This document shows positions 5,311-8,192 of a stretch of DNA of 62,076 nucleotides, piece by piece (the stretch's first letter is position 1; each line of letters starts with the position of its first letter). The DNA is from Frankia torreyi (GTDB lineage: Bacteria > Actinomycetota > Actinomycetes > Frankiales > Frankiaceae), in the NCBI RefSeq assembly GCF_000948395.1, contig NZ_JYFN01000024.1, positions 7,606-69,681 on the forward strand, given 5' to 3'. The translations under genes and the position numbers were made by a program. The notes beneath the pieces were generated by a model, which did no database searches, was not told the DNA's origin, and saw nothing but the letters and a program-made list of their open reading frames with translations.

Positions 5311-5339
5311 TGAAGCACCGGTCACTCGGTTCGCTCGGG

Positions 5340-8018
5340 TCAGTCGGTCGGTGACGGGCGTCCGGTCTGCTGGCTCGTGAGGAGCTGCGCACGGCGGTGG
5401 ACGTCGCGGGGGGAGCAGCGGCGGTCGAGTCGAGTCCGCAGAAGCGACTGGGCGATGTCGGGCCGGTTGGCCTGGATGGCACAGTAGATCGTGGTGTCCT
5501 CGACGATCTCGCGCTGGGCGGCGCTGCCCCCGAGCCGCTCGACGCCGGGCAACGCGATCAGCGCGTCGGTCGCCCGGTCGGGATCACCGTGCAGGAGATG
5601 CATCAGGGCGTCGGCCAGCGGCGCGACGGTGTCGGTGAACACCGCGTTGCTCCGGGCGGCCGCGGACCGGCGCAGTTGCGCGAGTCGGCGGCAGTCCCCC
5701 ACGGCGGCGAGGGCGACCGCCGAGTGGAGCCCGACGAAGGGCGTCGGCGGATCGACGAGCAACGCGGCGGGAACGGTCTCCAACACCGGTCCGAGTTCCA
5801 CCGACGTCCAGGCGCCGGCCGCGAAGCCGCGCCACAGCAGCGACGCCGAGTCGATCAGCGCCCGGACGCCGGAGACGGCCGGCGGCGCGAGCTGGGTCGA
5901 GAAACGCGCCCGGATCGCGCTGTCGTCACCGAGGGCGAGTTCGTGCAGGGCCGCGTGCCAGGAGAAGTGCGCCCGATGCGACGAATCCGACCCGCAGGTC
6001 GAGATCCAGGCGTCCAACCAGGCCAGCCCCGCCTCATGGTCGCCGGTCTCGTAGTGGACGTGGGTCTTCGCGTGGACGGCGTGGCCGGCGGTCGGTTCGA
6101 CGGCCAGCGCCAGTGCGGCGAGTTCGGCCGCCTCGTCCCAGCGCTCCTGCTCCTGGCGGGTGAAGGCGAGCAGCCCCCGGTACCACCAGTCGTCGCGGTA
6201 GACGGCAGCCAGGCCTTCGACCAGGGCCCAGGCCTCGGCCGGGAGCTCCGTCGCGCCGCTGAACGCGATCGTCGGCACAGCGATGCTGACGGCCAGGGCA
6301 TCTTCCGGGTAGGCGTGGATGTAGCTGAGCAGTGCCGCGGCCGAACCGGCTCCCCCCGGCTCGCGGATGCGGGCGGCGACGACCTCGATGAAGCGTCGCT
6401 CACGCTCGTCGGCCCGGCCGGCGTGGCGTTGCGCGTTCCGCAGAGCCGTTTCCACGTCGACGTCGGCGCCCCACTCGGCACCGAGCAGCGCCAGCACCGC
6501 CTGCCCGAGGGCGAACTGGGGGTCGGCCGCGACCGCTTCGGCCACCAGCGCTTCGGCTCCGGACTGTACCCGCAGGATCCGTCCGAGCCCGGCGACATAG
6601 CGACCGGCCGCCTCCGGGCTGGCGGTGAGGGGCAGGCCGTAGGGGTCGCGCACCCGCCGGACGCCCTGTGGCCCAGGCAGGGCGGCCACGACGGCGCGGG
6701 CGACCGAGGCCGCCTGGCCGCGGATCTCGGGGATCGCCGTGCTCTCCCACAGCTCGCCGCGCCGCAACGGTCCGATGGCCCAGATCGCCGGCCGGGGTCC
6801 GTCGGCCGCGACCAGCCGCCCGGACGCCTCGGTGGCGAAGCCCAGGTCCAGGCTGTCCGGGGTCGCCAGGCCGGTGGCAAGCAGGTTCATGACCAGGGGA
6901 TCATGGCTGGTCCGCACGCCGGCGCCCGCACCGGTGCAGTTGACCACGGCCGCGGCGAGTACCCGCGAGCCGTCGCTGAGCGAGACCTCGACGCCGGCCG
7001 CGGTGTCGGAAGCGTCGACGACCTGCGCGGCGTGCACGACCAGCGATCCCTCGGCGCGGCGCTGCTCCAGCCAGGCGTGGATGGCGGGGTCGACGCGGTG
7101 GCGCACCTGGTCCCAGCGCCGCATCGTCGTGGCGACGAAGCTCGACCGGGCAGCCGCGTCCAGGCGCGACCACAGCTCGGCCGTCACCGGGCGCATCGCG
7201 TCCACGCCCCGCCGCCAGTCGCCACCGGCCGCGCGGATGTGATCGAAGACAAGCCGGCGGGCCTGGGCGAGGCTCACCGGTCCGGCGGGCAACTCCGGGG
7301 CGGCCAGCGGCGGCGCCGGGTCCAGCACGTGGGGGAGCGGAAGCAGCCCGTGACGCGAGGTCACATGCAGGCGCACGCCGGCCCGGCTCCAGCGCTGGGC
7401 CATGTCGGCCATCGTCAGGCCCGAGCCGACGAGCAGCACGTCGCTGCCAGCCGGGACGTGGGGCTGGGAATCCGCCCGCCATGGATCACCGACGAACCGC
7501 GGCGACCGGGCCAGCGCCGGCGGGGCCCACGACGTCGTCGCGGCGCCGTGCCCGAGCGCGAGGACGACACCGTCGACCGGATGGCTGGTCCCGTCGTCGA
7601 GCGTGAGGCGCAGCCGGCGGCCATGCCGGCGGAGGTCCGTCGCGCGAGCGCGCACCCGCTCGCAGTGCACCCCGCTCGCGGCGCGCAGCGTCTCCTCCAG
7701 CGTGTGGCGGAGGTAGTCGGCGTAGAACTGGCGGGGTGCGTAACCCCTGGCTGGAAAGTCGACCGCGACGTGCCGACGAAGCCAGCGCAGGAAGTGCTGC
7801 GGATCATCGTCGAATGCGCTCATCTTCGCGGCCGGGACATTGAGCCGGTGCCGCGGATCCCGGGTCCGATACGCCAGGCCCTCGCCGACGTCGTCCGGTT
7901 CGACGAGCAATATTGTGAACCTGCGGCCGGTAACCGCCACGGACCTTGCCAGCTGGGCGGCGGCGAGGCAACCGCTCGCCCCGCCACCCACCACCGCGAC
8001 GACCACCGGCGCACTCAT
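5340..8018 (-). CDS. FAD/NAD(P)-binding oxidoreductase fused to a TTC38-like TPR domain
   Basis: The first about 457 residues are a flavoprotein of the FAD/NAD(P)-binding (NAD_binding_9) type. It has a dinucleotide motif GGGASG near the start, a second one (VGSGLT) in the middle and a C-terminal cofactor closure. From about nucleotide 6648 downward the remaining 435 residues match the tetratricopeptide protein TTC38 along its whole length: an opening DPYGLPLTAS, a WWYRGLLAF helix pair, HAVHAKTHVHYETG, and a closing LGGSAAQREI segment. Residue total is 892. The ATG at 8018 overlaps the TGA of a 13-codon upstream frame, so translation may be coupled. The reaction is unknown. Both domains are intact and in one frame, so this is a genuine fusion rather than a readthrough. 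Confidence 0.82.
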   Translation of the reverse strand: MSAPVVVAVVGGGASGCLAAAQLARSVAVTGRRFTILLVEPDDVGEGLAYRTRDPRHRLNVPAAKMSAFDDDPQHFLRWLRRHVAVDFPARGYAPRQFYADYLRHTLEETLRAASGVHCERVRARATDLRRHGRRLRLTLDDGTSHPVDGVVLALGHGAATTSWAPPALARSPRFVGDPWRADSQPHVPAGSDVLLVGSGLTMADMAQRWSRAGVRLHVTSRHGLLPLPHVLDPAPPLAAPELPAGPVSLAQARRLVFDHIRAAGGDWRRGVDAMRPVTAELWSRLDAAARSSFVATTMRRWDQVRHRVDPAIHAWLEQRRAEGSLVVHAAQVVDASDTAAGVEVSLSDGSRVLAAAVVNCTGAGAGVRTSHDPLVMNLLATGLATPDSLDLGFATEASGRLVAADGPRPAIWAIGPLRRGELWESTAIPEIRGQAASVARAVVAALPGPQGVRRVRDPYGLPLTASPEAAGRYVAGLGRILRVQSGAEALVAEAVAADPQFALGQAVLALLGAEWGADVDVETALRNAQRHAGRADERERRFIEVVAARIREPGGAGSAAALLSYIHAYPEDALAVSIAVPTIAFSGATELPAEAWALVEGLAAVYRDDWWYRGLLAFTRQEQERWDEAAELAALALAVEPTAGHAVHAKTHVHYETGDHEAGLAWLDAWISTCGSDSSHRAHFSWHAALHELALGDDSAIRARFSTQLAPPAVSGVRALIDSASLLWRGFAAGAWTSVELGPVLETVPAALLVDPPTPFVGLHSAVALAAVGDCRRLAQLRRSAAARSNAVFTDTVAPLADALMHLLHGDPDRATDALIALPGVERLGGSAAQREIVEDTTIYCAIQANRPDIAQSLLRTRLDRRCSPRDVHRRAQLLTSQQTGRPSPTD

Positions 8019-8057
8019 CGGGACCGTCGACAGGACGTGTGCGGACACCTGGGCATA
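8016..8057 (-). CDS. 13-residue upstream leader reading frame
   Basis: An ATG at 8057 is preceded at ideal spacing (6 bases) by a strong AAGGAG, the best ribosome-binding site near the start of the oxidoreductase gene. It encodes MPRCPHTSCRRSR and stops with a TGA that overlaps the oxidoreductase ATG (ATGA). The larger gene has no Shine-Dalgarno of its own at 8018. The arrangement looks like a translationally coupled leader peptide with two cysteines and three arginines in its second half. It could also be a chance frame used only to load ribosomes. Confidence 0.5.
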
Positions 8058-8192
8058 GAGATCTCCTTCTGCGTCAATTCCAGTCCTTATCAGGTTAGGC
8101 GCAGGTGGGGGAGGTCGTAGCCCAGATCGACGGAACGAGGTGTGTGATCCGATTGGCAGCCCCGCGGCCCGGTTCGTCATCGGCGGCCGGGC

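Follow-up and report, generated by a model that had tools for sequence, protein, structure and literature searches.

The systems closest to the protein described here are, for its flavin half, the FzmM/CreE-type L-aspartate N-hydroxylases, which form nitrosuccinate (PDB 8cp2, 8cp5), and the ornithine and lysine N-hydroxylases PvdA, SidA, KtzI and DesB, and, for its other half, the standalone bacterial TTC38/StaR-like tetratricopeptide repeat (TPR) proteins. We take animal TTC38 to belong to this last family, and we know of no biochemical role for TTC38; a CDD entry presumably groups it with StaR, encoded in a cluster for a glycopeptide antibiotic, and offers a role in connection with flavoproteins as a guess. 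The literature searched on StaR, YdhS and PF13454 yielded no function, and for human TTC38 it offered just an association of the locus with serum metabolites that are not named (PMC5780481). In FzmM, Asn62 is positioned over the flavin C4a, and the aspartate ligands are Arg13, Arg276, Asn413, Arg416 and Arg577 (PMC10404684). SznF and the MetRS-cupin hydrazine synthetases, multi-domain enzymes that form N-N bonds, combine N-hydroxylation with a second domain of the His-metal type, which processes the N-oxidised intermediate (PMC11705231).

The window analysed here, a 62,076-nucleotide stretch of Frankia torreyi DNA, contains a gene (5340..8018, minus strand) that encodes a PF13454 flavoprotein and a complete TTC38-type TPR superhelix as one continuous chain. 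The frame is open throughout 5340..8180 (-), with in-frame starts upstream of 8018; the ATG at 8018, common to all Frankia copies, yields a protein of 892 residues, and no stop or frameshift was found between the two halves. The full-length frame recurs, at 85–95% identity, in the majority of Frankia genomes and in several from Parafrankia and, as a single frame, in all 36 Streptomyces loci examined, so the fusion is not a sequencing artefact. The in-frame joining of a flavin oxidoreductase to a complete TTC38-type protein, as proposed in the earlier note, is thus borne out, and the frameshift that might have split the halves into separate genes is absent. In the full-length AlphaFold2 model (pLDDT 87.5, pTM 0.62), the relative placement of the two domains is uncertain, and the interdomain linker (residues 449-457; 6648..6674, -) falls below a pLDDT of 50 at residues 450-453. 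On the opposite strand, a 907-aa open frame (5397-8120, +) runs antisense to the gene and is likely a shadow ORF arising from high G+C codon use.

The N-terminal domain (residues 1-448; 6675..8018, -) matches the PF13454 NAD_binding_9 profile over residues 8-157 with E = 1.3e-43 and 149.1 bits, above the curated cut-off of 21.8, as the earlier note had anticipated for this half. Its best solved homologue in profile searches was the aspartate N-hydroxylase FzmM (E = 1.7e-18), and its predicted model superposed on FzmM (8cp5) with Z = 30.3 and an rmsd of 2.8 Å over 439 residues at 23% identity. Like FzmM, the model has FAD and NAD(P) dinucleotide domains with an inserted helical substrate domain, as in class-B enzymes, together with a GxGxxG FAD site. 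Asn60 (7839..7841, -), present in 42 of 43 relatives, aligns with the catalytic Asn62 of FzmM. The ornithine hydroxylase PvdA scored below FzmM in the structure comparison (Z = 27.9); PvdA, KtzI and SidA, also returned by VIA, and DesB have the class-B flavin monooxygenase fold in common with the domain (Z = 24–28), but at 10–18% identity, with a different substrate domain and without a TPR domain. We therefore read the oxidoreductase half as a putative class-B flavin N-hydroxylating monooxygenase, an assignment well supported by fold and residues, which refines the previous label of "FAD/NAD(P)-binding oxidoreductase".

At the same time, the differences from FzmM extend to the substrate pocket. 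Tyr50 stands in place of FzmM Trp51, and of the five aspartate ligands the two that could be mapped are both replaced (Arg13 by Ser15 and Arg577 by Ile429; the alignment does not cover Arg276, Asn413 and Arg416). Aspartate is therefore an improbable substrate, and the reaction may also be a different one. From these comparisons, the domain keeps the fold and the oxygenating residue but probably not the aspartate pocket. The Frankia enzyme also differs in carrying the TTC38 domain, and no recognisable nitrosuccinate cluster was seen in the window.

The flavin fold of this domain is also found in reductases: thioredoxin, ferredoxin and bacillithiol disulfide reductases were among the Foldseek and VIA matches, and the four invariant histidines of the TTC38 half (see below) could hold a redox metal. 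The N-terminal domain might accordingly be an NAD(P)H-dependent reductase or oxidase, with the TTC38 part housing or binding the metal centre or partner that accepts its electrons. We consider this quite unlikely, since the top matches by Z score and by profile are N-hydroxylases, the catalytic Asn is kept, and the CxxC pair typical of disulfide reductases is absent from the translated domain.

The C-terminal half (residues 458-892; 5343..6647, -) aligns end to end with standalone bacterial proteins of about 440 aa, found by tblastn in plasmid records of Sinorhizobium, Roseomonas and others and annotated as "tetratricopeptide repeat protein". Residues 458-885 are 31% identical to the Sinorhizobium protein over 440 columns (pairwise E = 9e-34), and in an alignment of 22 rows the similarity spans all 435 C-terminal residues. 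This agrees with the claim that the half follows the TTC38 pattern from opening to closing motif: fused and standalone forms have in common the D-x-x-GLPL start, HxxxH, HxxWH and the GGSxAQR end (residues 830-836; 5511..5531, -), in which Gly830 is kept in 62 of 62 sequences, Gly831 in 60 and Arg836 in 59. The standalone members are without a flavoprotein, whereas the Frankia protein is joined to one. Pfam and NCBIfam returned no TTC38 match to this half, which is uninformative because no TTC38 model turned up in either. We use the name TTC38 on the strength of general background and of motifs named in the earlier note, taking the unlabelled bacterial standalone proteins to be its representatives in the comparison.

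Modelled alone, the C-terminal domain is all helical (AlphaFold2 pLDDT 92, pTM 0.90), with about 25 helices. Structure comparison matched it to TPR superhelices (Z up to 15.8), and its sequence fits the consensus TPR in part; the fold search returned many TPR proteins, with no relative standing out. Separately, a standalone 436-aa protein from a small genome of another family in the same phylum (L062:8405-9715, genome G218) is 43% identical to the fused C-terminal domain, far closer than the other standalone proteins, and groups with Frankia in the tree.

Across 62 sequences of this half (46 fused and 16 standalone, at ~24–95% identity), eight residues are invariant: His649, His653, His684, Trp687, His688, Arg730, Phe761 and Gly830. 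His649 and His653 form an HxxxH motif (6060..6074, -) on one helix (645-658), while His684, Trp687 and His688 form an HxxWH motif (5955..5969, -) on a helix (679-696) two helices further on. The groove of a TPR solenoid is usually lined by alternate helices, and the spacing of the two histidine pairs would therefore place them in the groove. As the same residues are invariant in fused and standalone forms, the TTC38 part appears to have a putative active or ligand site of its own; their pattern is more in keeping with catalysis, or with the binding of a ligand or metal, than with a simple adaptor, and metal binding is suggested by histidine conservation.

The main rival reading gives the TTC38 part the role of ordinary TPR domains: it would be a non-catalytic adaptor that controls the oxidoreductase or delivers proteins or peptides to it as substrates. 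The TPR superhelix fold is consistent with such a role, the best solved matches being protein-binding TPR subunits and the peptide-binding Rap/NprR regulators, and at least one close relative of the N-terminal domain, 73–76% identical to fused N-domains, manages without the TTC38 part. Adaptor TPRs, however, are not expected to hold four His, a Trp, an Arg and a Phe invariant at ~24–95% identity in both fused and standalone proteins, and standalone TTC38-type proteins exist with no adjoining PF13454 oxidoreductase; we regard the adaptor reading as somewhat unlikely. The earlier note had suggested that the TTC38 repeats serve the oxidoreductase as a regulatory or substrate-presenting domain. 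A working link between the halves is supported by conservation and, among Frankia copies, a dN/dS of ~0.2, but the specific role is disfavoured by the many standalone proteins and by the eight invariant residues, which suggest a separate site.

The fusion is not confined to Frankia and Parafrankia, where the named loci nearest to the window gene are those of Frankia gtarii and Frankia sp. QA3. Streptomyces also has it, at 44–49% overall identity, in ~35 of 296 genomes (37 hits with E < 1e-95), and the N-terminal domain in Streptomyces is nearly always within a fused frame. The fused proteins are annotated just as "FAD/NAD(P)-binding protein". The architecture is conserved in Frankia and Streptomyces and is not unique to this genome. 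Split versions encoded side by side, which the earlier note proposed to look for, were not found among the genomes surveyed; in three of them (G042, G035 and G043) the two parts are separated or one is missing.

Pairwise dN/dS among Frankia copies was 0.22 for the N-terminal and 0.17 for the C-terminal domain, showing that both halves are under purifying selection, and rose to ~0.63 over the linker region (residues 441-458), where selection is relaxed, and to ~0.6 in the linker and tail. That two distant groups of actinobacteria retain the fusion, with these low values in both halves, supports a working link. A neutral joining of two domains that do nothing together is accordingly very improbable and already largely refuted. 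Such a reading could draw on the closest N-only relative, from S. coelicoflavus, which is without a TTC38 part, and on decayed copies: the fusion is broken in Parafrankia soli and absent or remnant in other genomes, including two other Frankiaceae. Retention across Frankia and Streptomyces with selection on both halves of the Frankia copies argues the other way. The Parafrankia soli copy (NRRL B-16219, L043:5929-8197) has a frame change after about residue 424 and some 145 residues missing, and genomes G008 and G016 have nothing but remnants.

The same three fused groups appear in the N-domain and C-domain trees. Several independent fusions were considered and set aside, as a single fused group was not rejected in the C-domain tree (p = 0.19). 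The N-domain tree did reject it (p = 0.0003), owing to the N-only protein of S. coelicoflavus, which groups there with the two fused proteins to whose N-domains it is 73–76% identical; we read this N-only form, from its placement, as a probable later loss of the TTC38 part. The F. torreyi genome also encodes a second, standalone PF13454 protein (L202:4091-5638, contig C135), distantly related (30% over 247 residues) and adjoining a Sir2-family gene.

In the window, the fusion gene is flanked on one side by a NarL-type response regulator and kinase with an ABC pair, and on the other by a MerR regulator and an ABC transporter; these neighbours are not common to other Frankia, except partly QA3. 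Frankia DNA similarity stops at 5338 and 8137 with differing neighbours, which had suggested a solo mobile gene. The loci showed no terminal sequences in common; in the nearest relative (G002) the contig that carries the gene also carries, 7 kb away, the flanking DNA of the window copy; and flank and gene are comparable in their divergence. These findings favour local rearrangement, combined with a higher degree of conservation in the gene, as the origin of the boundaries. PADLOC gave no match to anti-phage defence.

A hint of sulfur metabolism comes from N-only PF13454 relatives: sulfur-acquisition genes adjoin six of the 13 annotated loci sampled, with none at the other seven. The six neighbourhoods comprise cysDN-ssuABC, tauABC, Rrf2 with cysTW, sulfonate receptors, Rrf2 with sfnB, and ssuD. 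Near the fusion itself, cysC, cysN or ssu genes lie ~4–8 kb away in a few loci, and a divergent Rrf2 regulator adjoins 10 of 36 fused Streptomyces loci; one such regulator contains no cysteine in its full sequence and is thus not of the iron-sulfur type. No sulfur genes were seen near the Frankia copies. On these raw neighbour counts, a role for the fusion in sulfur metabolism is plausible and is treated as a lead. PF13454 flavoproteins also recur, sometimes as tandem pairs, in sulfonate, taurine or sulfate acquisition clusters (L194, L195, L145, L150), a role that to our knowledge is undescribed.

Upstream of the Frankia gene, a conserved region (8019..8137, -), ending where the Frankia DNA similarity ends, forms a putative promoter plus leader. 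It includes most of a candidate leader mini-ORF, MPRCPHTSCRRSR (8015..8056, -), which overlaps the main start as ATGA, is served by a ribosome site AAGGAG at 8063-8068 and has been seen so far in Frankia and Parafrankia only. Across 13 aligned Frankia/Parafrankia copies its start codon, both Cys codons and a CGA-CGG pair are fixed, and the Cys codons are always TGT, whereas the fusion gene itself uses TGC over TGT, 64 to 5. By analogy, the mini-ORF could be a candidate cysteine-sensing leader of the kind described in mycobacteria (Canestrari 2020, cited in PMC9031893). No RNA structure was detected over the Frankia leader (z = -0.17). In two Streptomyces loci a small ORF ends in TGATG at the fusion-gene start (L071, upstream of 9019, -; L050:6475-6624); the two are unlike each other, and one is cysteine-rich. 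A general pairing of peptide precursor and enzyme was rejected, as no small ORF is present in most of the Streptomyces copies read and the two that occur are unrelated to the Frankia mini-ORF.

Taken together, the reading we prefer, with about an even chance of being right, is a two-domain enzyme in which the flavin monooxygenase half acts with a TTC38 half that binds and perhaps converts the product. NADPH would reduce FAD bound in the N-terminal domain, a C4a-hydroperoxyflavin would form over Asn60, and a small amine or amino-acid-like substrate, perhaps sulfur-containing, would be oxygenated. The TPR groove, through its set of four His, Trp and Arg, would then bind the substrate or an unstable oxidised product, and might convert it, possibly with a metal. 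The covalent link between the halves would keep the intermediate from escaping, as in other pairings of N-hydroxylation with a second metal site; the likeness to SznF and the MetRS-cupin enzymes is in idea only, as the folds are unrelated and there is no sign of N-N bond formation in the Frankia fusion. The monooxygenase part of this scheme is well supported by fold and residues, and the part assigned to the TTC38 half is suggested by conservation.

Fusion to a recognisable flavin enzyme narrows the search for a TTC38 role to the oxidation of small molecules, and the invariant positions single out exact side chains for mutation in this family. Records labelled "FAD/NAD(P)-binding protein" may thus hide a defined two-domain enzyme family. 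More speculatively, and in our judgement unlikely as a whole, TTC38 proteins may be overlooked TPR-fold enzymes whose groove set of four His, Trp and Arg forms a metal-dependent active site acting on small metabolites oxygenated at N or S. In that case a single polypeptide would cover the two steps in the actinobacterial fusion, and the animal protein would catalyse the second of them on its own particular metabolite.
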